45,082 nucleotides of DNA from Acidobacteriaceae bacterium (GTDB taxonomy: Bacteria; Acidobacteriota; Terriglobia; Terriglobales; Acidobacteriaceae), in assembly GCA_025355505.1 (NCBI GenBank), contig JANXZM010000009.1, positions 1 through 45,082 of the forward strand, read 5' to 3'. Below, one piece after another: positions 16,144 to 41,089 of the stretch. The translations under genes and the position numbers were made by a program. Under the pieces are notes generated by a model, which worked only from the letters and a program-made list of their open reading frames with translations, was not told the origin of the DNA and made no database searches. Each line of letters starts with the position of its first letter. Position 1 is the stretch's first letter.

Positions 16144-16185
16144 TTGACAAACTAACCTTGCCGTCGCTATTGTTCTAAGCGCTTA
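16144..16185 (+). promoter_or_regulatory. Promoter with LacI-type operator for unit A
   Basis: TTGACA at 16144-16149, 18-base spacer, TATTGT at 16168-16173, then the perfect 10-bp palindrome TAAGCGCTTA at 16176-16185, where RNA polymerase would start. Operator centre is 31.5 bases from the end of the -35 box. The same arrangement recurs at 30258-30299 (minus) and 40789-40830 (minus). The position suggests repression, probably by one or both LacI-family proteins in the window. Confidence 0.65.
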
Positions 16186-16245
16186 TTGAATATGCTTTTT
16201 TGATGGCTTGAAACCGCGTCGATCTGCCCTGTGAGGTCTGTAGCA

Positions 16246-25704: not shown

Positions 25705-25792
25705 ATCGTTGTTCAAGACACAAGCAGAAATTCACGCGCACTTCAACAGAGCATATCAGGAACCTTGGTACGCGGTTGCTCCTGGCCCTTCT

Positions 25793-26695
25793 TCACACAC
25801 CGAGCAGGCGAAGATACTCTCGCCCCGCGATGGCATTCGCTAACGGAGCATCTGCCCCGGCCCCGCCCGGCAGCACGTCTGCCTCGACCACCACCCAGCC
25901 ATCAAAGTGGCCCTCTTGCAATAGTGCCACGATCTTGGGAAAGTTGATACTTCCCTGTCCAAGGGGCGCAAAGATTCCGTGCCGGACCGCCTCGTGAAAA
26001 TTCATTCGCCCGCTGCGCGCTTCCGCTGCCTTCCTTTCGTATACATCCTTGAGGTGCACGCACCACACGCGCGACACCTGCTTCTCAAGAAACGCCACGG
26101 TATCTCCGCCACAATATACGTAGTGCCCGGTGTCGAGACACAGGCCCAATTCATCGGCGGGAAACAGGGAAAAGAGGCGATCGACTTCCTCGGGTGTTTC
26201 CACATGGCTTCCGGCATGATGGTGAAACGCTACCCGCAGACCGACTTCCTTGCACTGCGCAATTACCTCACGGATCGCAGTTGCCGCTGCCTGCCACTCC
26301 GATTCGCTCCAGGACAGTTGATTGGCGTCGTTGCGACGGCCCGCTGTGGCATTTCTGTCGGGCATAATTTTGTCGGAAAGAATCAGCAGGCGAGCACCCG
26401 CATCACTGATCAGGCGGGCAGAGCGCGCAACAAAGGCTAAGCCGTCCGGGTGCGCGGCAGCGTTACCCAGTTCGATGTCCACAAAAGCTGAGCAGAGAGT
26501 GAGCGATCGCTTCTCCAGTTCACTGCGCAGCATAGCTGGCTCGGCAGGAAGGAATCCATAAGGACCGAGCTCGGTACCTGAGTATCCGGCAGCCTTGATC
26601 TCGTCCAGAACCCGTCCAGAGGTGTAATCGGCGGGGAGCTCGACATGCTCCATGATTCCCCAGCTGATCGGTGCGTTAGCTACACGAATCGCCAT
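25793..26695 (-). CDS. iolE: IolE/MocC-like sugar-phosphate isomerase/dehydratase family protein
   Basis: A 300-residue TIM-barrel protein of the xylose-isomerase-like AP-endonuclease 2 superfamily. The start ANAPISWGIMEH, the metal-site segments FHHHAGSHVETPEE, LDTGHYVYCGGD and HLKDV, and the C-terminal VVVEADVLPGG match inosose dehydratase IolE and its rhizopine homologue MocC. The reaction would convert scyllo-inosose to a diketone that IolD then opens. It lies 171 bases downstream of the TonB receptor on the same strand. IolE and MocC cannot be told apart by eye. Confidence 0.8.
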   Translation of the reverse strand: MAIRVANAPISWGIMEHVELPADYTSGRVLDEIKAAGYSGTELGPYGFLPAEPAMLRSELEKRSLTLCSAFVDIELGNAAAHPDGLAFVARSARLISDAGARLLILSDKIMPDRNATAGRRNDANQLSWSESEWQAAATAIREVIAQCKEVGLRVAFHHHAGSHVETPEEVDRLFSLFPADELGLCLDTGHYVYCGGDTVAFLEKQVSRVWCVHLKDVYERKAAEARSGRMNFHEAVRHGIFAPLGQGSINFPKIVALLQEGHFDGWVVVEADVLPGGAGADAPLANAIAGREYLRLLGV

Positions 26696-26866: not shown

Positions 26867-29800
26867 CTAGAACGCGAGTTTGAGACCAAACTGTATCTCT
26901 CGCTGATTGTCCGGAACTGTCGAAGTGATAGCAGCACCTCCGGTGACGTTTATGAATCCAGCTCCGCTGCTTCCCCCTCCTGATCCGAAGTTCGGAAGAC
27001 CAAAGTTTGGATGGTTGAAGATATTGAAGAACTCGGACCTGAAAGTAAGCCCGTATCTCTCACCCAACTGAAACGTCTTGTAGAGGGAGAAGTCAAAGTT
27101 CACCAGGTCCGGACCTCGCAGCACGGCGCGTTGCGTGTTCCCGAACATGCGGGCAGAAAGCTGACCCTGGGCGAGAGCCGGAACAGCAAAAGCCTCTTGG
27201 TTGAACCAGCAATCACGGGTCTGATGGCCGGGCTTGGTGCAGCCCATGGCTAACTGTCCCGCCGTGTTGAAGGAAAAGTCGTAAGGGTTGTGAATTCTGT
27301 CCGGACGTGCGCTGGAAGCGCCGGTATTGGTGACGTCGCCGCCGAGGAGGGCGTCGAAGGCCTCGCCGCTGCGTATTGTGGTTACGCCGCTAACCTGCCA
27401 ACCAGCCAGAGCGGCTCGCGCCACGCTGCCGGCGGAGGCGCCGTAATGCTTCCCCTTGCCGAAGGGCAAATCATAGACGTAGCTCACCGTCAGGCGATGG
27501 CGGAAGTCCGGTGTGTTGGGTCCTTTTTCAGCGGCAATGTTGTGCGCATTTTGCACGTCACACTGCTGGACGTTACCATCGGCCGTGCCGACTGATTTCG
27601 CGTAAGTATAAGCGGCAAGAACATTGAACCCGCTGGAAAACCGGTGTTCGGCAGACGCCTCGAATGCGTTGTAGAACATGCTCAGCCGTGCGATATCAAG
27701 GGGCAGGACCGTGGTCAGACCGGGCCGGACGCCGAAGTACGGACGCCCGAAGTTTCCCGTGGAGTCCGAAAAATTTGAGTCCGCCGGCTGTAAAGGCTGA
27801 TTTAGATTCGATGATTCATGGTCGTAGAGATTGTTGCTCTTCGAGCCGACGTAGCCAACCTGAACCAGCCAGTTGGACGCAAGCTCCTGTTGAATCGTAA
27901 GGTTCCATTCGTAGATTCTGGGAATTTTTCGGACCGCTCCCGTGGTTCGCACCGTCCCGACGGGGTTCGTCGGATCCACCGTGGGGATGGTGGCTGGAAA
28001 GCCGCTGGAGACTAATTGGCTGACCTGCGGAATCTGTGAAGTGCTGAAGTTGCGGGAGAGGACTACCAGGTTGGGCGGATTGAGGCCCAGGTCGTCAAAA
28101 ATATTTCCTTCGGCGGCGTAAAAGATGCCAGTGGCAGCGCGCACGACGGTTTTGGGACGCACGGTCCAGGCAAAGCCAGCCCGCGGCGCCCAGTTTGTTT
28201 TGTCGAACCCAACTCCGGCGTGCGGGCTTTGGGTATCCACGACGGCGGTCGTTTGGTTAAAGTTGCCAACTTTTTTCCCGCCCGCGGGCGAGTTGATTTC
28301 GTACCGCAAGCCGAGGTTCAAGGTTAGGTTCGGAGTGACGCGGATGTTGTCCTGGACAAACTCCGAGATGTCCCAGTAGCGCGTGTCATCGCTACCGGTC
28401 AAATGATCCTGCAACGAGAATTGAGGAATTCCGAGCAAGGTGTCGGCCAGGGCTACGCCTGTGTAATTTCCGCTGAACTGGTACCAGCCGGAGGGAGCTG
28501 TCTGCTGAAAAAAGTTCCGCTGCTGACGGCGAAAATCCATTCCGAACTTTACCGTGTGCTTGCCGTGTATCCAGCTTACGGTGTCAGCCAGCTGATAAAC
28601 GTTTTCGACAATCGTCTCTGGAACCCACAGCGAATCACCGAGCTGCTGAAAACCAGAAATCTGAAGCTTGGTTAATCCCGAGCTGTTGCCCCCTCGGTTG
28701 GAGTTGGGAATGCCCAAAGTCTCCGACGGATTCTTCCCGAAATCCAGGGGCAGCGTGTTGTCGCGGTACCGGATGAATCCGGCGCGCGCGTCATTAATCA
28801 GATTGGGACGGAGGATGCGTGTCCAATCCACACCAAAGCTCTGCGCTCGGTCATTCAGGGTGCTGGACGTACCCGAACCAGCTCCACCGTCGACACCCGG
28901 CAAAAATGAGGGATTAATCGATACGGGCGTCGCGATCGCGTAGTGCGAAAAAAAGCGGTCTTTGCTCGTCAGGTTATAGTCGAATCGCGTCTCGATCGCC
29001 GTCTCGTCGAACTTGGACTTTGCGTTGTAGTTGAAGTTATTGCTGAGATTGGTGTTTCCCGATGTCGGCAGCGGGAAGAGATTCACTATGTTCTGACCCG
29101 TGGTATCGATTCGGCCGGATGGAACTTGGGACGGGTTCCCGGGATTGAGCGGATTCCCCGGGTTCGAAGGGTCGTTGAGGACAACGCTCCCCATCTCCGA
29201 GAAATCTCCACTCCGCATCTTTAGGGTGGGAACGGTACTAATGTACGGAATCACCTTGCGGATGTCGGTGCGTTGAATCGAACCGAAGATAAACATCTTG
29301 TCTTTTACGATCGGGCCACCCAACTGACCACCGTATTGGTTTTGTTGGAAGGGTGTGGGCGAACTGGCGAAGAAATTCCGCGCATCCAGGTGATTGTTGC
29401 GAATGAATTCCCAAGCCGTACCGTGAATCTTGTTGGTCCCGGCGCGCAGCAGCAGGTTCACCATGGCGCCGCCGCGCCCGAATTCCGCGCTCATCGAGTT
29501 TTCTTCGACGCGGAACTCCTCGATGGCATCAGGGGGGGGCTGAATGACGACCGTTCCGTTGCCAAATTCGTTGTTGTCAAAGCCGTCGAGGAGGAAGTTG
29601 TTGTCAAAGACGCGAAGACCGTTCACGGCCAAAGCAATACCCGGCCGGTTATTGTCGGTGGAACCGGCGCCCGCGCTCGTTCCCGTCGAACCTTCATTCG
29701 CTCCGGGGCCGAGGAAAGCGAGTTTGAAGAAATTCCTGCCGTTCAACGGCAGCTCGACAATACGCTTCTCGGTTTCAATCGTTCCTAACGAAGAAGTCTC

Positions 29801-30199
29801 CTCCTGAAGCAGTGGAGGGGCGTCGGTCACCTCAACGGTTTGCGACACGGAGCCGACCTTCAGAACCGAATCCACCTTAACGACTTGTCCAATCTCGATG
29901 GTCACGTTGGTCTGGACCACGCGCCGATATCCCGTCTTCTGGAACGTGACAGTGTATTGTCCGATCTTCAGGGGCGTAATGCTGTAGCTTCCGGAAGAGT
30001 CCGCGGTAACCGTGGTCGCGGTGGAGGTTCCAACTTCGGTGGCGGTCACGGTGACGTCAGGCACCCTTGAACCGGATGCGTCGCTAACCGTTCCGACGAT
30101 GCCGCCGGTCGTCAGTTGCGCCAGAGCGGCCGGCGCCGACCAAAACAGCGCCACTGCACAAACCAAAAAACTCCCCACGAAACGCGCGCGCTTTGTCAT
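26867..30199 (-). CDS. Oar-like TonB-dependent receptor with carboxypeptidase-regulatory domain
   Basis: An 1110-residue outer-membrane beta-barrel. It opens with a signal peptide (FLVCAVALFWSAPAALAQ), then an Ig-like CarboxypepD_reg domain (about 30-115, GGIVGTVSDASGSRVPDVTV), a plug (LPLNGRNFFKLAFLGPGAN), and a long barrel ending in FGLKLAF, with the C-terminal Phe of outer-membrane barrels. Such receptors are greatly expanded in Acidobacteriota and take up glycans or other large substrates. GGGGGGAAAC precedes the ATG, and its promoter carries a LacI-type operator. In this setting it may import a cyclitol or conjugate. It replaces the ABC importer found in rhizobial moc clusters, at least within this window. 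Confidence 0.9.
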   Translation of the reverse strand: MTKRARFVGSFLVCAVALFWSAPAALAQLTTGGIVGTVSDASGSRVPDVTVTATEVGTSTATTVTADSSGSYSITPLKIGQYTVTFQKTGYRRVVQTNVTIEIGQVVKVDSVLKVGSVSQTVEVTDAPPLLQEETSSLGTIETEKRIVELPLNGRNFFKLAFLGPGANEGSTGTSAGAGSTDNNRPGIALAVNGLRVFDNNFLLDGFDNNEFGNGTVVIQPPPDAIEEFRVEENSMSAEFGRGGAMVNLLLRAGTNKIHGTAWEFIRNNHLDARNFFASSPTPFQQNQYGGQLGGPIVKDKMFIFGSIQRTDIRKVIPYISTVPTLKMRSGDFSEMGSVVLNDPSNPGNPLNPGNPSQVPSGRIDTTGQNIVNLFPLPTSGNTNLSNNFNYNAKSKFDETAIETRFDYNLTSKDRFFSHYAIATPVSINPSFLPGVDGGAGSGTSSTLNDRAQSFGVDWTRILRPNLINDARAGFIRYRDNTLPLDFGKNPSETLGIPNSNRGGNSSGLTKLQISGFQQLGDSLWVPETIVENVYQLADTVSWIHGKHTVKFGMDFRRQQRNFFQQTAPSGWYQFSGNYTGVALADTLLGIPQFSLQDHLTGSDDTRYWDISEFVQDNIRVTPNLTLNLGLRYEINSPAGGKKVGNFNQTTAVVDTQSPHAGVGFDKTNWAPRAGFAWTVRPKTVVRAATGIFYAAEGNIFDDLGLNPPNLVVLSRNFSTSQIPQVSQLVSSGFPATIPTVDPTNPVGTVRTTGAVRKIPRIYEWNLTIQQELASNWLVQVGYVGSKSNNLYDHESSNLNQPLQPADSNFSDSTGNFGRPYFGVRPGLTTVLPLDIARLSMFYNAFEASAEHRFSSGFNVLAAYTYAKSVGTADGNVQQCDVQNAHNIAAEKGPNTPDFRHRLTVSYVYDLPFGKGKHYGASAGSVARAALAGWQVSGVTTIRSGEAFDALLGGDVTNTGASSARPDRIHNPYDFSFNTAGQLAMGCTKPGHQTRDCWFNQEAFAVPALAQGQLSARMFGNTQRAVLRGPDLVNFDFSLYKTFQLGERYGLTFRSEFFNIFNHPNFGLPNFGSGGGSSGAGFINVTGGAAITSTVPDNQREIQFGLKLAF

Positions 30200-30257: not shown

Positions 30258-30305
30258 ATAAGCGCTTATCATATAGCTCCGTTCCTGCCACAATGTCAAG
30301 CGCTT
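30258..30305 (-). promoter_or_regulatory. Promoter with two LacI-type operators for the TonB receptor
   Basis: On the minus strand: TTGACA (30299-30294), 18-base spacer, TATATG (30275-30270), then the perfect palindrome ATAAGCGCTTAT (30269-30258). Operator centre is 30.5 bases from the end of the -35 box, as in unit A. A second core, AAGCGCTT, lies at 30298-30305 over the -35 box, 38 bases from the first. The start codon is 59 bases further, at 30199. The remaining intergenic sequence up to 30409 has only A/T-rich stretches. Confidence 0.65.
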
Positions 30306-30409: not shown

Positions 30410-31456
30410 TCAGCCGGCGGTCGACTCAATGTTCGATGCGATGGCCACAGGTCGGTTTTCGCGAGCCGACTGATAGATCGCCTGAATCGTCGCGATGTCT
30501 CGAAGCCCTTCGATTCCATCCGACTTCAGGTCATGCCCGCGCCGGATACAGTCGGCAAAATGGTCCAGCTCCAGTACGAACTCGTCCATCACTTTGAACT
30601 TCTGCTCAAACCATTTTCCCTGCACCTTGCCAAACAGGCGGCGATCTTCTTCGAAAGCAAACGCGGGGTTCAAGGCGGCCCATCCCTTGTCGCCGTGAAC
30701 CTGGACGAAGGAAGCCGCCTTCGAGCTGTAGCTCGAAGTGCCTTGGCAGACGAGACCTTCGGGGTGCGTGAGGCGGAAGGCGATACTGTCTTCCACTTCG
30801 GCGAAGCGCTTTGGGTCGTCAGTCCAGGTCTGCGCCGACGCCTCGATCGGGTTGCTCCCCGCAAGCCAGCGCATGGTGTTAACGCAATAGATGCCTATGT
30901 CCATCAATGAACCGCCTCCGGCCAGCCGCCGGTTCAGTTGCCAGCCGACTTTCGCCGGATCGACGACTTCGGTGTAGGCCGAAAACATGTGCCGGAGACG
31001 GCCGAGTTTGCCGCTGGTGATCAGCTTCTTAAGCGCCACGCTGCCCGGCTCGAAATACTTGCGATAAGCGGTCATCAGGTAGACCCGGTTCTGTTTGCAC
31101 GCTTCCACCATGCGGCGACATTCTTCCACCGTTATGCCTAGAGGCTTCTCGCAAAGCACGTGCTTTTTCGCCGCTGCCGCGCGGATCGTCTGTTCGGCAT
31201 GCGATCCATTCACCGAAGCAACAAAAACCACTTCGACGCCGGGATGGTTCAGGCATTCATCGTAGTTTTCGTAGCCGTAGCAGTCTTTGACACCGACACC
31301 GAATTTGGCGCCGAGTTGCTTGGCCCGCTTCTGATCGTGACTGACCACAGCCACCAGTTTGCACTTATTGCTGTGACGGAAAGCTGGCAACACAGAAGTT
31401 TCCGCAATGAAGCCCAAGCCTACTACCGCATATCCGACACGTTTTGCAGTCGCCAT
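30410..31456 (-). CDS. Gfo/Idh/MocA oxidoreductase (GFOR-like paralogue 2)
   Basis: A 348-residue paralogue of 18819-19844, sharing YAVVGLG, EKPLG, MTAYRKYFEPGS, GGGSLMDIGIYCVNTMRW and HGDKGWAALNPAF. Rossmann NAD(P)-binding N-terminus and dimerising C-terminal sheet are as in the family. AAGGAG precedes the ATG at 31456. It closes unit C, 48 bases after the transaldolase-like gene. Substrate is probably a cyclitol or sugar hydroxyl; the family does not fix it. Confidence 0.87.
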   Translation of the reverse strand: MATAKRVGYAVVGLGFIAETSVLPAFRHSNKCKLVAVVSHDQKRAKQLGAKFGVGVKDCYGYENYDECLNHPGVEVVFVASVNGSHAEQTIRAAAAKKHVLCEKPLGITVEECRRMVEACKQNRVYLMTAYRKYFEPGSVALKKLITSGKLGRLRHMFSAYTEVVDPAKVGWQLNRRLAGGGSLMDIGIYCVNTMRWLAGSNPIEASAQTWTDDPKRFAEVEDSIAFRLTHPEGLVCQGTSSYSSKAASFVQVHGDKGWAALNPAFAFEEDRRLFGKVQGKWFEQKFKVMDEFVLELDHFADCIRRGHDLKSDGIEGLRDIATIQAIYQSARENRPVAIASNIESTAG

Positions 31457-31504: not shown

Positions 31505-32605
31505 TCACGCGGCATCCGGATTCGGCAGCATAATATCGCGCACCAGCCCATCGAGTTCAAGACAAGCGGAGATGAACTGGCGAAGCGTCCGACGGGTAGG
31601 GCCGAAAGAATCAAATGCGCCCACCGAGAGGCCGCCTTCCGAGTAAGCGCTGCGGAAATCCGCGAACTTCCGCGAGAGTTCTTCCACGATCTTGAAATCC
31701 ACCGGTTTGTCGATGCGCGGACAAACCTCAACGTCGCTCGCGTTCAGGCGAACCTGCCACCCGAAAGGTGGAGAAATAACGACATCGCCACCGATGAACT
31801 CGCTCCAGTGCATGTGATTGCGAAACGCCGCCGACAGCAGGCGTATGCGATAGCCACGCTCGCGAAAAAGCTGGTAAGTCTTCTTGAACACCGCTACGCC
31901 AGCCCACTCCAGGTATCCGGGGTCGATCGTGATATTTTCTTTTTCGGCGATGACCTTCAGCCAGTCGTCAAGGCGTCCGACCATGATGGTGCATACTGGC
32001 CCCATGGTCGCAATTTCCTTACCTTCCTTCTCGCGGCGTGTCAGCCCACGTTCCACCGCTTCGGCAACCGCCATGCACTGCGGCAGCGTGAAGCTGACTG
32101 TCGCGTTGATACTGATTCCGCGGTAAGTCGCTTCCTCGATGGCGGGAATCCCCGCGCGGGTTACCGGAATCTTCACGATCATATTGGGTGCCAGCCGGTC
32201 GAACTCCTGGGCCTGCTGCACGATGGATTCCGTGTCGCGATAGAACCGTGGATCGGTTTGTATCGAAAGCCTTCCGTTTCGTCCGTGATGCGCATCGAAA
32301 ACCGGCTTCAGTAAGCTGGCAGCTTTAATGGAAACTTCACGAACCAGTTGCCAGCCGATCTCTTCTTCGGTGGCAGTCTGCCGTTCTTCAATCAGTGCGC
32401 GAATGCGGTCTTTCCACGCCCCCATTTCCTTCTTAAGGATTCCGAGCACGATCACCGGATTGCAGGTGGCGCCGACCGCGCCATGTTCGATCGAATAGGT
32501 GAGCTCCTGAATCGACGCCGAGTCATTCCACAGGCAAGTCGATGTGGTCTGGGTCATTTCGTGCAAGGGACTCTTGTAAGTTACAGGAGCAGTTACTTGC
32601 ATCAT
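31505..32605 (-). CDS. Transaldolase-family protein in the inositol operon
   Basis: A 366-residue class I aldolase of the transaldolase family. Family segments: SIEHGAVGATCNPVIVLG (canonical TSNP), Schiff-base Lys in NMIVKIPVTRAG, then SINATVSFT. It is longer than ordinary small transaldolases and diverges around the active-site loops. It starts in a 4-base overlap (ATGA) with the end of iolG, so the two are translationally coupled. No IolC or IolJ is in the window, so this protein may take part in the late carbon cleavage or rearrangement of the inositol route. That idea is speculative; sugar-phosphate transaldolase activity is the default. Confidence 0.82.
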   Translation of the reverse strand: MMQVTAPVTYKSPLHEMTQTTSTCLWNDSASIQELTYSIEHGAVGATCNPVIVLGILKKEMGAWKDRIRALIEERQTATEEEIGWQLVREVSIKAASLLKPVFDAHHGRNGRLSIQTDPRFYRDTESIVQQAQEFDRLAPNMIVKIPVTRAGIPAIEEATYRGISINATVSFTLPQCMAVAEAVERGLTRREKEGKEIATMGPVCTIMVGRLDDWLKVIAEKENITIDPGYLEWAGVAVFKKTYQLFRERGYRIRLLSAAFRNHMHWSEFIGGDVVISPPFGWQVRLNASDVEVCPRIDKPVDFKIVEELSRKFADFRSAYSEGGLSVGAFDSFGPTRRTLRQFISACLELDGLVRDIMLPNPDAA

Positions 32606-33648
32606 GGATTCCTCCGGCCGCCGCTTTTGTTCTCGTCTACCTGTCCCACGGGGCTTGGCTTGGATTGAAGATGGGATTGCTCAGCAGCTACAGCGATCTC
32701 GAGGGCCCGCAAGCCGTCTTCCCCTGAAACACGGGGAGCGCGGTCGTGCAACATGCTTTGAACAAAATCCTGGACTTCAGCAACGTAGGCGTCGTCAAAC
32801 CTTGTAAGGAAATGGTCGGCAAGTTTTTGAGTGCCACCATCGCAGGTCAGAACAGTAACCGAGGTTTGTTGCAGGCTTCCAATCAGGATCGACCCTTTCG
32901 ATCCTGCAATTTCAGTTCGTATATCGTAGCCATAGACTGCCTGCACAAAGGACTCGATGTTGCCGATCGCGCCGCGCCCGTACTTCAGGTTCACGACCCC
33001 GGCTACGATGTCGCCAAACTCGGCAACCTCCGGGCGAATCGCCACGGTTGCGTAGGCTTGGACTTCTTTTACTTCATCGCGCATGAGCCAGCGGGCCAGG
33101 TCGAAATCATGGATGGTGTTGTTGTAAAACAGCATGCCGTTCAGCTTCGACTGATAGGACGAGATCGGTGGAGCATCCTTGTCACGGCCAATTGATTTGA
33201 AGACGACGGGCTCCCCGATTTCGCCAGCCTCAATCCGCTTCATGGCTGCCGCATAGCCAGGATCGTAGCGGCGCATGAAACCGATCTGCAGATGGACGCC
33301 AGCCTTAGCAACCGCTTCCAAGGCAGCATGCGCATCCGCAAGGCTCAGGGCCAGAGGCTTTTCACAGAGGATATGTTTTCCCGCTGCGGCCGCGGCGCGG
33401 ATGGCTTGGGCGTGGAACTTGTCAGGTGTGGCGATTACAACGCAGTCGATGTTTTTGCGCTCCAGCATGTCTTCCAAGCTGGCAAATCCGTGCTCGATTT
33501 CAAGCTCAGCGGCGACCTGCCGGGCTTGGTCGGCAGCGACATCGGCAACCGCGACCAGAGTGGCCTCCGGCACCAGGCGGCGGATGTTTTCCGCGTGCCG
33601 CTTGCCCATCGCTCCCACTCCGAGTACGCCAATCCCCAGTTTGCGCAT
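32602..33648 (-). CDS. iolG: myo-Inositol 2-dehydrogenase (IolG-like)
   Basis: A 348-residue Gfo/Idh/MocA enzyme. Rossmann motif GVLGVGAMGKRHA, EKPLALSLADA, GFMRRYDPGYA, and the catalytic segment NNTIHDFDLARWLM (conserved Asp and His) match inositol 2-dehydrogenase, which oxidises myo-inositol to scyllo-inosose with NAD+. Located 22 bases after iolD. Start ATG 33648 is preceded by GGGAG with a 9-base gap. The frame is open further to 33768, but that part lies in iolD. Close paralogue at 19864-20898. Confidence 0.88.
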   Translation of the reverse strand: MRKLGIGVLGVGAMGKRHAENIRRLVPEATLVAVADVAADQARQVAAELEIEHGFASLEDMLERKNIDCVVIATPDKFHAQAIRAAAAAGKHILCEKPLALSLADAHAALEAVAKAGVHLQIGFMRRYDPGYAAAMKRIEAGEIGEPVVFKSIGRDKDAPPISSYQSKLNGMLFYNNTIHDFDLARWLMRDEVKEVQAYATVAIRPEVAEFGDIVAGVVNLKYGRGAIGNIESFVQAVYGYDIRTEIAGSKGSILIGSLQQTSVTVLTCDGGTQKLADHFLTRFDDAYVAEVQDFVQSMLHDRAPRVSGEDGLRALEIAVAAEQSHLQSKPSPVGQVDENKSGGRRNP

Positions 33649-33670
33649 TGCGTCTTTCTCCCAAACAATC

Positions 33671-35533
33671 TCAACGTTGCGAAGGCCAGAAATATCTTTC
33701 CTTCTTTTTGCCTTCCAGATAATCGCGCCGAGCTTGCTGGACGGAGTCCGACTCCGACACCTCGGCAATGGGAACGTCCCACCAGGACTCGTAGCCGGGA
33801 ACGCCGTCGAAATAATCGGTTTCCACTACCACCACCGACGTCCGCGGCTGCTTCTTTAAATCGGACAAGGCTTCTGCCAGTTGCTCATGGGTGCGTGCCC
33901 GCACGGCATGTGCCCCCAGACTGGCGGCATTCGCGACGAAATCGACGGGGATGACGGCGCCTGCGTTTTCCTGATCGCGATACTGATACTTCGTTCCAAA
34001 TCCACCGCTGCCGCACGCGCGACTCAGCCCGCCAATGCTAGAGAAGCCGTGGTTGTCAAAGATTACGATGTTGAGCTTCACGTTCTCCTGCAACGAAGTT
34101 ACGATCTCCTGGGCCATCATGAGGTAGGAGCCGTCTCCGACAAGAACGTAAACTTCGCGGCTCGGGTCCGCCATCTTGACTCCGAGCCCACCCGCAATTT
34201 CGTAGCCCATGCAGGAGTAGCCGTACTCCGTGTGGTAATTCTTGGGATCGCGCGTGCGCCAGAGCTTATGCAAATCGCCGGGCAGACTGCCCGCGGCACA
34301 AACGATGACATCGCGCGGACCAAGCGTGGCGTTCAGCAGCCCGATCGCCTCTCCCTGACTGAGCGGTGGACCGTGCCGCCGACCGTAGATTCTGTCAACT
34401 TCAGTCATCCACTCGCCGCGAAGGCCGACTATTTCAGAGGCGTAGCTTTCCGGCACGCGATACGACGAGAGCGCGGTTGAGAGCTCCTCGATCGTCGTGC
34501 GCGCATCTCCCACTACAGGCAGCGCCGCTTGCTTGCTGGCATCGAACTCGGTGACGTTGATATTGATCTGGCGCAGGTCCGGATTTTGAAAGGCAGTCTT
34601 CGAAGCAGTGGTGAAATCGCTGTGGCGCGTGCCTATGGCGACCACTAAATCGGCGCTGGCTGCCAACCGATTTGCAGCGAAAGTACCCGTGACCCCAATC
34701 GCGCCTGCCGACTGCGGGTGATCGAAGTTAAGCGAACCTTTTCCCGCTTGGGTCTCGCCCACGGGAATGCCAGTGCCCGCCGCGAAACGGGAGAGAGCTT
34801 CGGTTGCTTCGGAGTAAATCACACCTCCGCCTGCAATGATGAGCGGCCGTCGCGCCAACTGGATCCACTCGATGGCCCGGCTGAGCTGAGTTGCGTCCGC
34901 CCGAGCACGAGGAATAACCCAGGTGCGTGGGCGAAAGAATTCTTCCGGGTAGTCGTAGGCTTCGGCCTGCACATCCTGGGGGAGGGCAAGGGTTACAGCG
35001 CCTGTTTCCGCGGGCGAAGTCAGCACTCGCATCGCCTCCGGCAAAGAAGTCAGAATCTGTTCGGGCCGCTGGATGCGATCCCAATAGCGCGAGACTGGGC
35101 GGAAACAGTCGTTGACCGATACATCCTGCGAGGAGGTTGACTCCAGTTGTTGCAGAACGGGAGCGACGTTGCGGCGGGCGAAAATATCTCCGGGAAGAAG
35201 CAGTACAGGAAGCCGGTTGATGGTGGCTCCCGCAGCCCCGGTCAGCATGTTGGTAGCGCCTGGCCCAATCGAGGTCGTGCATACCAGCGTGCGGAGGCGG
35301 TTGCTCATCTTGGCGAATGCAGCGGCGGTGTGGACCATCGCCTGCTCATTACGGCACAGGTAGTAGGGAAAGTCAGGATTCTGCTGGAGCGCCTGACCAA
35401 TGCCCGCGACGTTGCCGTGTCCGAAGATGCCGAAGCACCCGGCGAAGAAAGCGCTCTGGTTACCGTCGCGCGATACGAACTGGGTTTTCAGGAACTGAAT
35501 GATGGCTTGCGCCGTGGTCAGCCTTCGCGTCAT
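33671..35533 (-). CDS. iolD: 3D-(3,5/4)-trihydroxycyclohexane-1,2-dione hydrolase
   Basis: A 620-residue thiamine-diphosphate enzyme that opens the cyclitol ring to 5-deoxy-glucuronate. Visible: N-terminal FGIFGHGNVAGIGQAL and the ThDP-activating Glu in CRNEQAMVHTAAAFAK; the central Rossmann-like domain (PLIIAGGGVIYSEA); and the C-terminal ThDP/Mg2+ motif GDGSYLMMAQEIVTSL with the downstream DNHGFSSIGGLSRACG. These last segments are diagnostic for IolD among ThDP enzymes. The start ATG 35533 gives MTRRLTTAQAII, the family N-terminus. First gene of unit C. Confidence 0.93.
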   Translation of the reverse strand: MTRRLTTAQAIIQFLKTQFVSRDGNQSAFFAGCFGIFGHGNVAGIGQALQQNPDFPYYLCRNEQAMVHTAAAFAKMSNRLRTLVCTTSIGPGATNMLTGAAGATINRLPVLLLPGDIFARRNVAPVLQQLESTSSQDVSVNDCFRPVSRYWDRIQRPEQILTSLPEAMRVLTSPAETGAVTLALPQDVQAEAYDYPEEFFRPRTWVIPRARADATQLSRAIEWIQLARRPLIIAGGGVIYSEATEALSRFAAGTGIPVGETQAGKGSLNFDHPQSAGAIGVTGTFAANRLAASADLVVAIGTRHSDFTTASKTAFQNPDLRQININVTEFDASKQAALPVVGDARTTIEELSTALSSYRVPESYASEIVGLRGEWMTEVDRIYGRRHGPPLSQGEAIGLLNATLGPRDVIVCAAGSLPGDLHKLWRTRDPKNYHTEYGYSCMGYEIAGGLGVKMADPSREVYVLVGDGSYLMMAQEIVTSLQENVKLNIVIFDNHGFSSIGGLSRACGSGGFGTKYQYRDQENAGAVIPVDFVANAASLGAHAVRARTHEQLAEALSDLKKQPRTSVVVVETDYFDGVPGYESWWDVPIAEVSESDSVQQARRDYLEGKKKERYFWPSQR

Positions 35534-35910
35534 GTTTCTACCCCAGTGAGCTTTGTGCAGTGAGCTGGTGCGTCGCCAAAGCAGCATACTGCAATTTGCC
35601 ACAAAGCACCAGCAGATTTGGTGAAGTTACAAACCGCTTATGTCTTTGCTCTAAATGCTTATATTTCGCTCGGTGGCAAGGTTTTAATGGTCCGAATAGT
35701 GGTGCCATCTGCCAATTCAGTGAAAGGTCGATTGTTCGCTTCCGTCTGGTCCAATCACCATGAACGTAGGTATTAAATAAGGGGTTAGTGTGGGTAGTGG
35801 GCACATTTTCACCGGTTCTCAATCGGGGCAAAGTACGTCGCCGGTCAATCGAGTCGTCGTTAACCGATGACCGGCAGGGCTGTGAAGGTCATGTATAGTC
35901 GTATTTTCCT
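35534..35910. promoter_or_regulatory. Divergent region between iolD and lacI paralogue 2
   Basis: No gene in 377 bases. Two decamers resemble the operator TAAGCGCTTA with two mismatches each: 35631-35640 (AAACCGCTTA) and 35652-35661 (TAAATGCTTA), in the stretch upstream of iolD. No clear -35/-10 pair in the unit-A arrangement was found, so these are weaker candidates than those at 16176, 30258 and 40789. The rest is A/T-richer than the genes. Confidence 0.4.
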
Positions 35911-36999
35911 ATGGTCAAGAAATCTGGGCGAACCGCAGGTGCCCGAGGATACAAGGCACCCAGTATCTACGATGTAGCCCGCGAGGCGAAGGTCTCGGTA
36001 TTCACAGTGTCGGCGGTGATCAACGAAACTGGAAGGGTCAGCGCGACTTTGAGCCGCCGCGTGGAAGCGGCGGTCCGCGAGCTCAATTACCGGCCTAATC
36101 TGCTCGCTCGCAGCCTTGCTAAACAGCAAACCCATACCTTCGGCATGGTGGTCACGGACATCGCCAACCCCTTCTTTCCAGCCATCGTGCGTGCCGCCGA
36201 AGATGCGGCACAGAAGGCGGGCTACAGTATGTTGCTTTGCAACAGTGATGACAAACCGGACAAGGAAGCGGTGTATCTGGAGCTTTTGATCGCCAATCGG
36301 GTCGACGGAATCATTCTGAGCAAGACGCCTTCCGCCTTGAGCGTCGCCCAACGCCGGATGCTGGATGAAGCGAAGATTCCGATCGTCCTGCTGATGAGAA
36401 CCTGCGCGGAACTGAAAACCGATATTGTGCAAACTAATGACAAGCAGGGGGCAATGGATGCGGTCGATCATCTTGCGCGCATCGGCCATAAGAAGATCGC
36501 ATTCGTCAGCGGCCCCATGAATGTCAGCAATGCCCGCGCCCGCCGGCAGGGCTACACCAAGGCGCTGAAGGCGCGGGGGTTGGTTTACGACCCTGAGTTG
36601 AGCTTCGAAGGCGACTATCGAATTGAGTCCGGTCGCCGTGCTGGGCATGCTCTGCTTCCGAAGCGGCCAGATGCGGTCCTGGTGACGAACTACCTGATGA
36701 CGATTGGGCTGATGAGCGCAGCGGAAGAGATGGGCTTGCGTTGTCCGGAAGACTTCGCCTTGATCAGTTTTGACGACTATCCCTGGTCCGGCTGTTTCCG
36801 TCCCCGTCTGACAACCATCGAATTGCCCAAGCACGAACTCGGCGACACCGCCGTGCAACTCTTGCTTCAGCGCATCCGGGGTACGCGCACCAAAGCTGTG
36901 ACCGTGAACCTCTTGCCGCAACTCCGGGTGCGCGAATCCTGCGGGTTCATGCTGCACTCCAGGAAAGAGCCAGTGGCAACCACCGAGGGATCACGCTGA
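35911..36999 (+). CDS. LacI-family transcriptional regulator (paralogue 2)
   Basis: A 362-residue LacI/PurR-type regulator. HTH SIYDVAREAKVSVFTVSAVIN (residues about 18-38), hinge YRPNLLARSLAKQQTHTFG, effector domain starting GMVVTDIANPFFPAIVRAAEDAAQKAG. The recognition helix is the same unusual Val-Phe-Thr-Val-Ser-Ala as paralogue 1 (24616-25704), and the effector domains are also similar (FDDYPW, FRPRLTT). It is divergent from unit C and convergent with mocE, overlapping its 3' end by 9 bases. Probably a local repressor responding to a cyclitol. Confidence 0.9.
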   Translation: MVKKSGRTAGARGYKAPSIYDVAREAKVSVFTVSAVINETGRVSATLSRRVEAAVRELNYRPNLLARSLAKQQTHTFGMVVTDIANPFFPAIVRAAEDAAQKAGYSMLLCNSDDKPDKEAVYLELLIANRVDGIILSKTPSALSVAQRRMLDEAKIPIVLLMRTCAELKTDIVQTNDKQGAMDAVDHLARIGHKKIAFVSGPMNVSNARARRQGYTKALKARGLVYDPELSFEGDYRIESGRRAGHALLPKRPDAVLVTNYLMTIGLMSAAEEMGLRCPEDFALISFDDYPWSGCFRPRLTTIELPKHELGDTAVQLLLQRIRGTRTKAVTVNLLPQLRVRESCGFMLHSRKEPVATTEGSR

Positions 37000-37323
37000 A
37001 TCGGGGATACCCACATACACAAGCTGCGCTTCAATCTTCGTGGGATAAGTGTGCAGGTTTACGCACACCGGAGCACCCTTCGCTTTGCCGGTAGGAATGT
37101 GGAAGCGTCCTTGATGTTTCGGACACTCGATAATCTCCCCCACTACCAGTCCGTCGGTCAGCAACTCATCCTCGTGCGTGCAAAGTCCATCCGTTGCGTA
37201 GAAGCCGCTGGGCGTGTGATAGATCGCGTAGATTTTTCCGCCGTGCTCAAACTGCGCCACGTCTTCCTCGGCAATGTCATCGACGTGACAGACTGGGTGC
37301 CAGGAAACAATGCCATCAGGCAT
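36991..37323 (-). CDS. mocE: MocE-like Rieske [2Fe-2S] ferredoxin
   Basis: A 110-residue soluble Rieske protein. Cluster ligands are in CTHEDELL and ECPKHQGRFH (CxH...CxxH). In Sinorhizobium, MocE is the ferredoxin for the MocD oxygenase in rhizopine catabolism, and the pairing with a MocD homologue here supports that reading. GGGGGA lies 7 bases upstream of the ATG at 37323; the longer frame to 37434 is inside mocD. The start overlaps the end of mocD by 8 bases. No MocF-type reductase is seen in the window. Confidence 0.85.
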   Translation of the reverse strand: MPDGIVSWHPVCHVDDIAEEDVAQFEHGGKIYAIYHTPSGFYATDGLCTHEDELLTDGLVVGEIIECPKHQGRFHIPTGKAKGAPVCVNLHTYPTKIEAQLVYVGIPDSA

Positions 37324-38362
37324 AGTGAGATCCCCCGGTGGCAGTAACTGCGTTGCCGTCCGATTCCTTTTCTTGCGACGGACGCCTGGATGCGGCATCG
37401 GGCGGAAGTTTCCGCAGAACAAAATAGTTCGCATCTTTCGACTGTTTGATCAGCGCCGGAACAATTTCCCGAAAAGCTTCCAGCAAGCCGGAATAGGTGT
37501 GCGGCATTACGCTTTGCATCCGTTCATGGAGGTTCGGCAACGCGTGAAACGGGACCATCGGGAACATGTGGTGTTCAATGTGGTAATTCATATTGAAGTA
37601 GAGAAAACGGAACACCGGATTCATCTTCACCGTGCGCGTATTCAACCGGTGATCGCGCACGTTTTCAGCCAGGCCCGCATGCTGCGTCAGCGAAAACATC
37701 TGATGGAGCCAACCTCCGTACATTCGCGCGAGGGGAAAGAACAGCAGTGGGAGCCAACTCTTGATGGAAACTGACCAAACCATCATTCCCAGGTAGACAA
37801 CCAGGTAAACACGTGACCACCAGAACATCTTCCGCCATTCGCTTTGCGGTACGAAGTCTTTTGCCTCTTTGGTGGGTACGCCCAGGGCATGGAGAGTCAT
37901 CACTCTGAACATCTGGATGGCATCCGGTATCCAGAAAAAATCCAGCAGCACTTTGCGCAGGTTCGCTGGGCGCATCACCTGGATCTCCGGATCGAGTCCG
38001 ACCATGATCGTTTCCGTGTGGTGCCGCGTGTGACTCCAGCGCATGTAAGTGCCTTCCTTCATGTTCATGAGAGAGGAAAGCAAATAAAACATCTCGTTTA
38101 GCCAGCGCGTGCGGAACGGAGTGCCGTGAGCGCACTCGTGCCATCGGGCATCGCATGAACTGTAGATTGTGCCGTACAGGAAAAACGCCGGAATCACCCA
38201 ATGGCTGCCAACCGCCGCGTAGGCAAGGTAGCCGCTACCGGCAAGGCATGCCAGCCAGAGTCCGAAGTTGGCGAAGCCCTTCCCGTTACCTCGCGCCATC
38301 AACAGCTTCAGCTCTTTGCGAGGAATCTCAGGACGATACCAATCGTCCAGCGATTGCGTCAT
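37316..38362 (-). CDS. mocD: MocD-like di-iron hydrocarbon oxygenase / fatty acid desaturase-fold protein
   Basis: A 348-residue integral-membrane di-iron enzyme. Three histidine boxes are visible: HECAH near residue 75, HTRHH near residue 110, and HIEHH near residue 255. Between them are membrane segments such as FFLYGTIY and LVVYLGMMVWSV. With MocE, rhizobial MocD removes the methyl group of 3-O-methyl-scyllo-inosamine. Here the gene is directly followed by a Rieske ferredoxin and preceded by an APC permease and iolB. A lipid desaturase is the alternative, but the cyclitol neighbours argue for a MocD-type role. Confidence 0.83.
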   Translation of the reverse strand: MTQSLDDWYRPEIPRKELKLLMARGNGKGFANFGLWLACLAGSGYLAYAAVGSHWVIPAFFLYGTIYSSCDARWHECAHGTPFRTRWLNEMFYLLSSLMNMKEGTYMRWSHTRHHTETIMVGLDPEIQVMRPANLRKVLLDFFWIPDAIQMFRVMTLHALGVPTKEAKDFVPQSEWRKMFWWSRVYLVVYLGMMVWSVSIKSWLPLLFFPLARMYGGWLHQMFSLTQHAGLAENVRDHRLNTRTVKMNPVFRFLYFNMNYHIEHHMFPMVPFHALPNLHERMQSVMPHTYSGLLEAFREIVPALIKQSKDANYFVLRKLPPDAASRRPSQEKESDGNAVTATGGSHYA

Positions 38363-38399
38363 AGCTCACACCAATCCCATTCTACGAATCAACTTGCCA

Positions 38400-39782
38400 T
38401 CACGATTCACTAAAATCGATTTCCACCGGTTGCCCGAAAGCCATGGTCTTCAAAATCACGTAAAGCGCGCCTGCGGCCACCCAGATCGCGCCGATCGCCA
38501 GCGTCGATCCTTGCAAGCCCAAAAAGATCACCAGGCAGAAAACAAATCCCAGGCACGGCACGATAACGTCGAGCAACAGGCTCCGCTTTCCGGCCATTCC
38601 CGGGGAGAAACCAAAATGCCGGACAGCCGCGAGGTTCACAGCCATAAAAGTCATCAGCGCGCCGAAATTAAGAATCTCAACCGAGCGCTCCCATCCCAGG
38701 GTTAAGCTGCCCAGATAGGCCAGAGCGCCGACGATGAGCACGTTATTAGAGGGATTGCCGCGCTCAGCGTTGAGATGGCCAAAAAGTTTACGCGGCAACA
38801 CGTTGTCGCGGCCCATGCTGTAGAGCAAACGCACGGCTCCCAGCAGACCAGCCAAACCACCAGCCAGGCTTGAAATGAGCAGCACGGCGCCAAATCCGAT
38901 AAACAGTTTGTAGCCGCCCACGACATTTGCCACATCCATAAAAGCTGTTTCGGGATTGACGAGGGTGCGGTAATCGGGCCAAACCCGAACCGCCAGGTAA
39001 ACCTGAAACGCCGCAAACAGCCCCGTGAAAACACAGACGAGAACGGACGCAAGCAAAACGTTTCGCTGCGGATTCTCGACTTCTTCCGCCAGGATGCTGA
39101 CCCCATCGAACCCGATGTAAGTGGTGGCAACCAGGGCTGTACCCGCGGCGATCGCGCGTACACTGAAGGTCTTTGGATCGTAGACAGGCTGAATTGAAAT
39201 CAGTCCTACGACGTGGTGGTGCCCAATGATGTACCAGATTGCCTCGCCGAGAAAAACCACCATTACGATGGACATCATGGCCAGCAGAATTTCATTCGCA
39301 CGCGCGGTAGTGCGAATTCCAAACCAGCACAAAAGAGTCATGAATCCGACTGCCAACGCCGAAAGTAACGCGAGGGGCACATTTGGAACTAATCGCTGGA
39401 TCGTGAGGGCCGCGTAGAGGCTGTTCTGTAGCGGCTGAAAAAGGTATTCCAGGAACATCGCCCAACCAACCACGAACCCAAACGTCGGATTGAAACTCCG
39501 GCTGGCGTAAGTGTAGACCGAACCGGCGGAAGGATAGACCGTCGCCATTCGTCCAAAGCTCACTGCCGTGGCGGTCATGGCCACCATCGCGACCAGAAGA
39601 GTTATGAGCGCATGACCGTGGGAAAGAACTTGAGCCACGCCAAACATGGGAACAACCGCGATCGGCGAGGTTAATATCATTCCGTAATAAACCAGGTCCC
39701 AGAGACCGAGGACTCTCTTGAGCTTGGGTGCCGCGGCTGTTGCCACTGCGGTTCTAGGTTCCACCTTGGTCCCCTGGCCCAT
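38400..39782 (-). CDS. APC-family amino acid / amine permease
   Basis: A 460-residue polytopic inner-membrane transporter of the amino acid-polyamine-organocation superfamily with about 12 hydrophobic segments. The TM1 region GLWDLVYYGMILTSPIAVVPMFG, the TM3 segment YPSAGSVYTYASRSFNPTFGF and GFDGVSILAEEVENPQRN (TM6-TM8) are family hallmarks. It lies between iolB and mocD, so a role in importing an aminocyclitol such as scyllo-inosamine is attractive; amino-acid uptake is the default alternative. The ATG at 39782 follows a GTG at 39785. Confidence 0.85.
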   Translation of the reverse strand: MGQGTKVEPRTAVATAAAPKLKRVLGLWDLVYYGMILTSPIAVVPMFGVAQVLSHGHALITLLVAMVAMTATAVSFGRMATVYPSAGSVYTYASRSFNPTFGFVVGWAMFLEYLFQPLQNSLYAALTIQRLVPNVPLALLSALAVGFMTLLCWFGIRTTARANEILLAMMSIVMVVFLGEAIWYIIGHHHVVGLISIQPVYDPKTFSVRAIAAGTALVATTYIGFDGVSILAEEVENPQRNVLLASVLVCVFTGLFAAFQVYLAVRVWPDYRTLVNPETAFMDVANVVGGYKLFIGFGAVLLISSLAGGLAGLLGAVRLLYSMGRDNVLPRKLFGHLNAERGNPSNNVLIVGALAYLGSLTLGWERSVEILNFGALMTFMAVNLAAVRHFGFSPGMAGKRSLLLDVIVPCLGFVFCLVIFLGLQGSTLAIGAIWVAAGALYVILKTMAFGQPVEIDFSES

Positions 39783-39867
39783 CACAGATGGGGTACTGAC
39801 TCGATTAGTTGCTCAGGCTGTCTGCTCTAACAATTTCAGATGCAATCATCACAGCCCGCGAAACCGG

Positions 39868-40719
39868 TCATCGCCTCAATACGAGCGGCAGGCGAGGGTC
39901 AAGCGCATTCCACGTGGACCGTAACCAGGCGTGCTGGGGATCTTCTGTAACCGCCATCGCGCGGGAAGATCCGGCAAGAAAGTTCAGATAGTAGACGTCA
40001 TAACCTGGTCCTGCAACCACCGGGTGGTAGCCGCTGCGAACCAGAACTGCATCTCCATCTCGCGTTTTCAGGGTTCGTTGCACGGAACTTTGGTGGGAAT
40101 AGAGATGTTGGAAAGCAAATGCGTTCTCTTGATTCATTCGATAGTAGTAAATCTCGTCCAGATCGACTTCCGTGGGCGGATCGTGAACGTCGTGCTTGTG
40201 CGGCGGATAACTGGACCAGTTCCCTCCTGGAGTGTAGACCTCCACCACAATCAACTTGTCCGCGGCAAAGGCGGGACTCATGATGTCGACGATCTGGCGT
40301 GAGGCGTTGCCCCCGCCCCGCAGACTGCTCACAACATCATTGGGAGTGATCAATCTCGGTTCCAGTTGCGCGGTCGACGGCACCCTGCATTCGGCAATCT
40401 CGCAAATAGATTCGGCCGTAAAAGTGACTTTGTTCCCGGTCGGCAAATACAGGGCATAAGGGTAGCCGTCGAAAACATTCTTTCGTTCTCCGATACGCTG
40501 TGCGCCTGGCCCCCAATCGGCCTGGCACGTTCCGCCAAGCAGCACAAACACCGCTTCCTCGCCATCCGTGTCCGCTCGATAGACCTCACCACGACCAAGC
40601 CGACGAACAAAGAAGCTCATCCACTCCCACTTAGCCCTTTGGCGAGGCAAATGAAGAAGCTCACCCGCCTGCTCCGGGGGCAGATTCTCGGAAGGAACGA
40701 GGCAATCACTTTCGCTCAT
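39868..40719 (-). CDS. iolB: 5-Deoxy-glucuronate isomerase
   Basis: A 283-residue cupin-type isomerase of the KduI/IolB family, converting 5-deoxy-D-glucuronate to 2-deoxy-5-keto-D-gluconate. The metal-binding stretch SSYPPHKHDVHDPPTEVDLDEIYYYR is diagnostic, with HKHD and DEIYYY ligands. LPTGNKVTFTAES and HPVVAGPGYDVYYLNFLAG are also typical. GGAG a few bases before ATG 40719 decides against GTG 40752. First gene of unit D, ahead of the permease, mocD and mocE, with a regulated promoter upstream. Confidence 0.92.
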   Translation of the reverse strand: MSESDCLVPSENLPPEQAGELLHLPRQRAKWEWMSFFVRRLGRGEVYRADTDGEEAVFVLLGGTCQADWGPGAQRIGERKNVFDGYPYALYLPTGNKVTFTAESICEIAECRVPSTAQLEPRLITPNDVVSSLRGGGNASRQIVDIMSPAFAADKLIVVEVYTPGGNWSSYPPHKHDVHDPPTEVDLDEIYYYRMNQENAFAFQHLYSHQSSVQRTLKTRDGDAVLVRSGYHPVVAGPGYDVYYLNFLAGSSRAMAVTEDPQHAWLRSTWNALDPRLPLVLRR

Positions 40720-40788
40720 GTGTTCTCCATTCCTACGTTGCACAGGACCCACTGTGACTCACGCCGGAGGCAATTGCAGCCTTATTGC

Positions 40789-40830
40789 TAACCGCTTTGA
40801 CAATATGTCAAACGCGGGTTCGGTTGTCAA
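40789..40830 (-). promoter_or_regulatory. Promoter with LacI-type operator for iolB (unit D)
   Basis: On the minus strand: TTGACA (40830-40825), 19-base spacer, TATTGT (40805-40800), then AAAGCGGTTA (40798-40789), two mismatches from TAAGCGCTTA. Operator centre is 31.5 bases from the end of the -35 box, the same as in unit A, and the -10 box is the same TATTGT. The remaining sequence to zwf (40831-41089) shows no other clear feature. Confidence 0.55.
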
Positions 40831-41089
40831 TCGCGACTTCAGTGACTGTCGTTAGCACGCCAGTCCCCAATACTCTCAATCGGCATGCGCCATTTCCTAT
40901 TTCCACGCGTCACACTGCACGGCGCAATTGATCACTGACGGGCAACCCGCGACGATCGCTTACCGGTAGTCCGATCCCCGTTCGACAACTCCGGGACCTT
41001 TTGAGTGTTATGAATTTGAACTCCGGTGACCTACAATTCTGGCCACAGGTTGGCGCTAGCATTAGAGAAATCGGGTAAAACAATATCCC

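Follow-up and report, generated by a model that had tools for sequence, protein, structure and literature searches.

A MocD-MocE oxygenase pair within a conserved inositol operon of an acidobacterium

In a stretch of 45,082 nucleotides from an Acidobacteriaceae bacterium (NCBI assembly GCA_025355505.1, contig JANXZM010000009.1, positions 1 to 45,082; the whole stretch is called the window below), genes for a MocD-like oxygenase and a MocE-like ferredoxin lie in a tight run with iolB and a permease gene (minus strand, 36991-40752). Our results indicate that this pair is built into inositol catabolism and that the linkage of mocD to inositol genes is not chance. An earlier reading of this DNA, made from the sequence alone, had already placed the four genes in one inositol operon, and the support for that placement is now stronger than this sequence-only reading could show. 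Profile scans found all four genes where it had located them: iolB (39868-40719, minus strand), encoding 5-deoxy-glucuronate isomerase (TIGR04378, 290 bits against a cut-off of 205; PF04962); a gene for an APC-superfamily permease of the amino-acid type (38400-39785, minus; PF00324, 108 bits); the gene for the MocD-like membrane di-iron oxygenase (37316-38362, minus; PF00487 FA_desaturase, 110.8 bits against 29.7); and that for the MocE-like Rieske [2Fe-2S] ferredoxin (36991-37323, minus; PF00355, 56 bits). The iolB reading frame was listed from a GTG at 40752 (39868-40752) and has an in-frame ATG at 40719. The permease gene follows iolB after 82 bp, mocD follows the permease gene after 37 bp, and the start of mocE lies within the final codons of mocD, giving an overlap of 8 bases. 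For the permease, the best NCBIfam model was BcaP (133 bits, far under its cut-off of 690) and the best solved relative was the amino acid transporter 6f34 (99.5 bits). The contig that carries the window measures 133,788 bases, and its genome has a size of 4.16 Mb and a completeness of 96%.

The conservation of this linkage was assessed in 398 family genomes sampled from a larger set, with a MocD search threshold of E 1e-20 or better. Forty-one genomes had a MocD match, giving 44 matches in total: six standalone proteins at 72-100% identity, including that of the window, 33 proteins at 42-50% and five distant ones at 32-37%. The genomes with a standalone MocD belong to four genus codes (three to g1 and one each to g174, g210 and g215), and in 6/6 of them mocD lies beside the same permease gene and iolB and/or iolD, which bears out the conserved linkage to inositol genes that the sequence-only reading had proposed to look for in relatives. 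The other five standalone loci are L040-L044. Four are long enough to judge, and the fifth, L044, is a contig end that cuts the locus and leaves APC-MocD. The order APC-MocD-MocE is contiguous in the window and in 4/4 long-enough relatives, and the permease gene directly precedes mocD in the window and 5/5 relatives. In the window, L040, L041 and L042 the permease gene is preceded by iolB; in L043 iolD lies between the two, and in L044 iolD stands ahead of the permease gene. The congener locus L041, which is continued by L165, has iolB, the permease gene, mocD, mocE, iolD, iolG, a transaldolase-family gene, a Gfo gene, a TonB-type gene, iolE, a second LacI gene, an FG-GAP gene and a TPR gene all in one direction, followed by an aminotransferase block in the opposite direction. 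In the window, unlike L041, this run is interrupted by a LacI gene that is convergent with mocE. In a phylum-wide draw of 297 genomes, three had MocD, including that of the window.

A block of 45-46 bp, consisting of GATTGACA, a spacer and CATATTGTCAAAGCGGTTAG, lies upstream of iolB in the window and in L040-L043 (5/5 genomes long enough). It has 36 invariant columns, and its flanks are little conserved. The block reads as a predicted promoter and operator, i.e., a -35 element TTGACA, a spacer of 17-18 bp, a -10 element CATATT and then the operator; in the window, at 40788-40832 on the minus strand, TTGACA is followed by a 17-bp spacer, CATATT and GTCAAAGCGGTTAG. A second copy of the operator core, AAGCGGTT[A/T]G, is found upstream of iolD (35630-35639, minus), so that the window has two matches, before iolB and before iolD, against 0.25 expected, and at least two matches occurred in 1/100 shuffles. 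The core was also found ahead of iolG in L040 and L043. Altogether, the conserved neighbors, the shared promoter and operator core, and the one-direction run in the congener indicate that the pair is part of the inositol operon.

Another site was associated with the aminotransferase cluster. The palindrome TAAGCGCTTA, a match to WAAGCGCTTW, is present before the TonB-type gene (30259-30268) and before the aminotransferase cluster (16176-16185), and with an inner copy at 17508 the window has three WAAGCGCTTW matches against 0.13 expected; three or more were seen in 0/100 shuffles. Counterparts of the copy at 30259 are present in L040 and L041, and those at 16176 and 17508 have counterparts in L165; no such palindrome was found in L042 or L043. 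Judged by these sites, mocDE and iolB have a common promoter, the operator core is shared with iolD and iolG, and the aminotransferase block has another site. A scan for CG-centered palindromes yielded two sites only, neither of them at these promoters. Two LacI-family regulators are encoded in the window, the candidate regulator that is convergent with mocE (35911-36999, plus; PF00356, PF13377), with homologues of 81-83% identity near mocE in L042 and L043, and a second one at 24616-25716 (minus; PF00356). The operator sites may be LacI sites.

MocE has the metal-ligand motif CxH-X16-CxxH of a Rieske protein, read from its sequence, and across 101 residues it has 60% identity with the MocE from a moc-like plasmid region of Rhizobium leguminosarum. 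To place the pair among its relatives, we used a GTDB scan with one genome per species, in which at least 556 MocD relatives were confirmed among 593 candidates. Neighbors were counted in the best 80 of these at least 556 loci, which are not a random sample and include some short contigs, and the counts vary with the thresholds set for identity and coverage. MocE adjoined MocD in 74/80 loci, and a separate MocF was near in 37/80. MocD and MocE were encoded in one open frame in 15/80 loci (14 from Chloroflexota and one from Akkermansiaceae), and MocD, MocE and a reductase domain in one frame in 9/80 loci and in 17/17 fetched fused acidobacterial loci. Of these 17, 16 belong to the 33 family proteins with 42-50% identity and one comes from another family; the reductase probe was taken from one of them, and one of the nine lies on a contig already counted among the 17. 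As the two proteins are adjacent in most loci and fused in one frame elsewhere, we regard MocD and MocE as partners, and this arrangement supports a role of MocE as the electron donor of MocD.

MocD has the features of a membrane di-iron oxygenase, namely the PF00487 profile, the histidine boxes and the fold. Histidines H75, H79, H111, H114, H115, H228, H261, H264 and H265 are invariant in 47 aligned sequences. An AlphaFold model built from a 39-row alignment had a predicted local distance difference test score (pLDDT) of 87.8, and in a Foldseek search it matched the AlkB-type protein FtAlkB (template modeling score 0.52, E 9e-4, 16% identity). Chains of two chloroplast FtsHi motor entries were matched better than FtAlkB; such complexes presumably have a desaturase among their subunits. 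Searching the sequences of solved structures with MocD gave nothing useful. MocD is 42-55% identical to other MocDs (45% over 337 residues to that of the R. leguminosarum moc-like region) and 29-37% identical to five desaturase paralogues of the family. The five standalone MocDs of acidobacteria formed one clade, with 99% support, in a 122-protein tree. In a tree of 51 rows this standalone clade grouped with 12 other rows at 96% support, and the nearest row outside it was a Chloroflexota protein. The approximately unbiased (AU) test did not reject joining the standalone clade to three desaturase-like paralogues of the family (p 0.206), and the root position of MocD is thus unsettled.

Based on these results, we propose O-demethylation of a methylated cyclitol (possibly an aminocyclitol) by MocD-MocE as a step that would feed the inositol pathway, with the pair acting as an accessory oxygenase of the inositol regulon; we consider this probable, though well short of certain. 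MocE would hand electrons to MocD. After uptake of the methylated cyclitol, MocD would hydroxylate its O-methyl group, and the methyl group would be released as formaldehyde. The freed inositol, or the inosamine after transamination, would then enter the route through IolG, IolE, IolD and IolB. Transcription of mocDE would start from the iolB promoter, and the operator core common to iolD and iolG would let the pair respond to the same signal. A ferredoxin reductase would be provided from elsewhere in the genome, where the best MocF match had 62.8 bits over about half the protein and the best reductase candidate is a 240-aa FNR-type protein. Loss of the methyl group as formaldehyde fits the one-carbon genes found beside the oxygenase in other loci. 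PanB-like hydroxymethyltransferase genes were near MocD in 15 of the 80 loci, PurU in two and FolD in one; PurU and FolD stand beside MocDEF on plasmids of M. huakuii and R. rosettiformans, and tblastn gave matches to PanB-like, PurU and FolD in the R. leguminosarum moc-like region.

Several observations weigh against this proposal. PanB-like, PurU and FolD were found neither in L040-L044 nor among the 29 open reading frames (ORFs) of the window covered by the Pfam scan (the ORF list has 86 of at least 120 aa, many of them overlapping). There is no MocF-like or FNR-type open frame in L040-L043 and no linked reductase, which agrees with the statement of the sequence-only reading that MocF is not seen nearby and disposes of the idea of a reductase hidden near these genes. 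The MocE score with TIGR02377 was 122.5 bits, under the curated cut-off of 136.15, which was also missed by MocE of four relatives (115-124) and of Caballeronia (129) and was passed by five plasmid MocEs (144-184; four alphaproteobacterial and one from B. cenocepacia). On the regulatory side, the second operator copy is absent in L041 and L042, which have the first copy only. An extra operator-core match without a known link lies at 13921 in L008, the window's own contig outside the window, and no copy of the candidate LacI regulator was found around these genes in L040 or L041 (nor in L165 or L166). In the 20-kb L040 locus, iolD was not found. With the 51 rows, the AU test rejected a joint clade of the standalone MocDs with seven rhizobial-type proteins (p 0.000245); MocD is outside the rhizobial branch and its substrate may therefore differ. 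Finally, no sequence evidence fixes the substrate.

That substrate might be an O-methyl aminocyclitol, i.e., rhizopine or a relative, which the permease would import, MocD-MocE would demethylate and the DegT-family enzyme of the aminotransferase cluster would relieve of its nitrogen, leaving an inosose for the Iol route. The amino-acid-type permease directly before mocD in all of these loci agrees with such a substrate, as does the DegT enzyme, which is nearest to inosose aminotransferases and is kept with its block beside the iolE end in L165. We nevertheless find this version doubtful, given that the aminotransferase cluster has the palindrome and not the mocDE promoter, that the aminotransferase is possibly biosynthetic, that no aminotransferase is needed for the inositol route alone, and that MocB and MocR were not seen. 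No MocB (the sugar-type ABC binding protein) was found among the 29 Pfam-scanned ORFs, in agreement with the sequence-only reading, and no genome-wide MocB search was made; L040-L044 had no MocB-like match either. A GntR/MocR regulator was likewise absent from the 29 ORFs, and no search aimed at MocR was made. A nitrogen-free methylated inositol is no less likely to be the substrate than a rhizopine-type compound. An equally tentative, broader idea is that a self-contained regulon serves these Acidobacteriota in the use of methylated aminocyclitols or inositols. Its parts would be outer-membrane uptake, an amino-acid-type permease, a reductase-less MocD-MocE, the Iol enzymes together with an inosose aminotransferase, and, replacing IolC-IolJ, an aldolase of the transaldolase family.

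Alternatively, the target of MocD-MocE might not be a methyl ether but a lipid, an unrelated compound or one of the ring carbons of the cyclitol, with the pair simply carried along in the operon. The Pfam family of MocD is that of the fatty-acid desaturases, the nearest NCBIfam model is also a fatty-acid desaturase (47.5 bits against a cut-off of 500), and the AU test tolerates the desaturase-like paralogues. Furthermore, 14 Chloroflexota loci and the 17 fused acidobacterial loci have no IolG, IolB or IolD over the thresholds, and weaker matches of 25-34% exist. We regard this explanation as unlikely, since the inositol-gene linkage is kept over four genus codes despite changed gene order, the promoter is common to 5/5 genomes, and identity is higher to MocDs than to the desaturase paralogues. 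A plain lipid desaturase with chance linkage is disfavored by the conserved promoter and gene set, and the desaturase grouping without conserved linkage that the sequence-only reading had named as fatal to its view was not observed. On phylogeny that reading fared unevenly, as MocD is closer by identity to MocDs than to desaturases and does not fall in the rhizobial clade. A recent acquisition of the cluster from rhizobia as a moc fragment, to which the 60% identity of the R. leguminosarum plasmid MocE might point, is very improbable; the five acidobacterial proteins form their own clade, the AU test rejected rhizobial transfer under its model and sampling, MocF is not adjacent, and the promoter is conserved within the acidobacterial group. 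Candidate genes for removal of a methyl and an amino group from a cyclitol, as first suggested, are present; demethylation would be the role of the oxygenase pair, and specificity for rhizopine is not supported. The preferred proposal, an O-demethylase of a methylated cyclitol, is one of known enzyme types in a new operon, with a substrate that we infer and that is testable.

The other genes of the window include further members of the inositol route. In addition to iolB, iolD (33671-35602, minus; TIGR04377, 920 bits against a cut-off of 715) passed its curated cut-off; iolE and both copies of iolG are homologous but below theirs. The latter are iolG copy 1 (32602-33768, minus; TIGR04380, 342 bits against 355), the true start of which is probably internal, iolG copy 2 (19864-20898, plus; 323.6 bits against 355; 49% identical to copy 1) and an iolE/mocC-like dehydratase gene (25793-26695, minus; TIGR04379, 193.6 bits against 290), the product of which is 33% identical to that of an iolE-annotated gene of the R. 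leguminosarum moc-like region. A Gfo/Idh/MocA-family dehydrogenase gene is located at 30410-31456 (minus; PF01408, PF02894), and a gene for a large outer-membrane protein of the TonB-dependent type, a label read from the sequence with no family scan, at 26867-30199 (minus); TonB-type homologues are present in L040 and L041/L165. The aminotransferase cluster consists of a zinc-type dehydrogenase gene (16231-17406, plus; PF00107, PF08240), with 150 bits in the scyllo-inosose 3-dehydrogenase model against a cut-off of 450, a DegT-family inosose-type aminotransferase gene (17467-18765, plus; PF01041), a second Gfo/Idh/MocA-family dehydrogenase gene (18819-19844, plus; assigned by the Pfam scan), 52% identical by pairwise comparison to the copy at 30410, and iolG copy 2. 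The best solved relatives of the DegT protein are 2-deoxy-scyllo-inosose aminotransferases (235 bits), and the block is conserved in L041/L165; the aminotransferase could be biosynthetic rather than catabolic. The IolE/MocC-like, IolG/MocA-like and StsC-like neighbors that had been named from the sequence thus hold, the first two below curated cut-offs. Genes for FG-GAP/ASPIC-UnbV and TPR proteins (20969-24558) separate the iolE end from the aminotransferase block, a position conserved in L165.

For the lower pathway, no iolC over the cut-off was found in the 96%-complete genome (six matches, the best with 127 bits against 300; in this search 3/14 controls were over the cut-off), and the best IolC-like kinase was set aside, being in an amino-sugar-like operon by a label read from the sequence. 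No DUF2090 protein over the cut-off was found in the genome (19.5 bits against 27), and IolJ itself was not searched for. An iolA/MMSDH gene is present on another contig (573 bits against 448.5). The transaldolase-family protein (31505-32605, minus; PF00923, 130 bits) is a candidate lower-pathway aldolase and may replace the missing one. Its gene follows iolG in 4/4 relatives (L040-L043) and was found in 4/199 genomes of the phylum at E 1e-60, including that of the window. A 54% identical homologue lies inside an iol cluster on a Clavibacter plasmid (L173, 9001-10125), and in another family member a 70% identical one has IolG- and IolE-like genes nearby (34-37% identity); for homologues in L174, L176 and L059 no adjoining IolB, IolD or IolE match was found.

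Among the best 80 loci of the GTDB scan, IolG was near MocD in 16, LacI in 44 and MocB-like binding proteins in 21, and IolB, IolD, IolE, the APC permease and the transaldolase-family protein were near it in 0/80 at the thresholds used; an Aminobacter locus has an IolD match (58%) under these thresholds. Since relatives of MocD are so widespread, use of rhizopine is not readable from their presence. S. meliloti 2011, which we take to be a sister strain of Rm1021, has mocDEF-like genes and a PanB-like gene on pSymB. A 1998 report by Bahar et al. is said, by its title, to concern a model of a ferredoxin oxygenase complex acting with the inositol pathway. One study describes Rm1021 as a non-producer of rhizopines and speaks of ononitol and pinitol as cyclitols that are abundant in nature (PMC6668481). 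Other papers include MocDEF in the rhizopine catabolic set, with a mocD promoter that is rhizopine-inducible (PMC10107442), report mocDEF without other moc genes in P. syringae, where its role is called unclear by the authors (PMC5132102), and describe a mocD-like gene (42% similarity) from a deep Mediterranean library (PMC1976395). Because mocDEF is present in P. syringae without other moc genes and in S. meliloti 2011, MocD alone is no sign of rhizopine. The label 'rhizopine-type' given by the sequence-only reading is therefore not supported, in view of the position of MocD outside the rhizobial clade, its widespread relatives and the neighbor counts for inositol genes (IolG in 16/80, IolB, IolD and IolE in 0/80).

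On a Rhodobacteraceae plasmid (L153, 2971-4276), a MocD-like gene (35%) and a ferredoxin gene adjoin a gene for 5-guanidino-2-oxopentanoate decarboxylase, a setting that suggests other polar substrates for this oxygenase type. The MocD-MocE-reductase fusions (L045-L059, L010 and L011) form one frame of about 760-940 codons in Acidobacteriota, and eight Verrucomicrobiota/Kiritimatiellota contigs among the 80 GTDB loci also have such fusions. Two-domain Chloroflexota fusions were found in L069-L072, L075-L078, L080, L083, L085, L086, L089 and L126, and two MocD copies in L072, L076, L080 and L085; no MocF was found near the Chloroflexota MocD-MocE fusions at the threshold used.

In the open-licence PubMed Central (PMC) literature we found no report of this arrangement or of an acidobacterial route for methylated cyclitols, and rhizopine use was the only studied role of the MocD-type group met there. 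A survey of inositol clusters that required at least three of iolB, C, D and E within 10 kb has, in its main text, no word beginning with 'Acidobacter' (PMC9430895). Through the conserved promoter, which links a MocD-type oxygenase with inositol genes, a widespread group of oxygenases gains a direct, testable substrate hypothesis, and annotating every mocD as 'rhizopine catabolism' looks unsafe. If the self-contained regulon outlined above is real, these Acidobacteriota would consume a class of cyclitols of plants and symbionts that has so far been tied to rhizobia.

The pair can be compared with several known systems. It resembles the rhizobial mocDEF genes on the R. leguminosarum plasmid CP050564, in a stretch that we call moc-like by gene content and in which no gene is named moc, in the identity of MocD and MocE, in the order D-E and in the iolE-annotated and Gfo/Idh genes nearby. 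The window differs in having LacI regulators and an amino-acid-type permease, with MocF, MocB and MocR not seen, in the placement of the pair inside the iolB operon and in its separate MocD clade. Canonical IolBCDEG clusters share with the window IolB and IolD over cut-offs and homologues of IolG and IolE, whereas the window has the transaldolase-family protein and mocDE, and its genome is without IolC or DUF2090 over cut-off. The MocDEF clusters on plasmids of Caballeronia, B. cenocepacia and Acidiphilium (MocD at 45-53% identity) have LacI and TIM-barrel neighbors, with iolG in B. cenocepacia, but differ in their adjacent MocF, and the flanks searched gave no match to iolB or iolD. The fusions of Chloroflexota and of Acidobacteriota/Verrucomicrobiota have the same two partner domains but in one open frame, and no inositol genes were found in the Chloroflexota and acidobacterial fusion groups at the thresholds used. 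Finally, AlkB and the fatty-acid desaturases are similar to MocD in predicted fold and histidine boxes, and MocD is set apart from them by its genetic setting, inside a conserved inositol operon, and by an identity of 16% in the Foldseek match.

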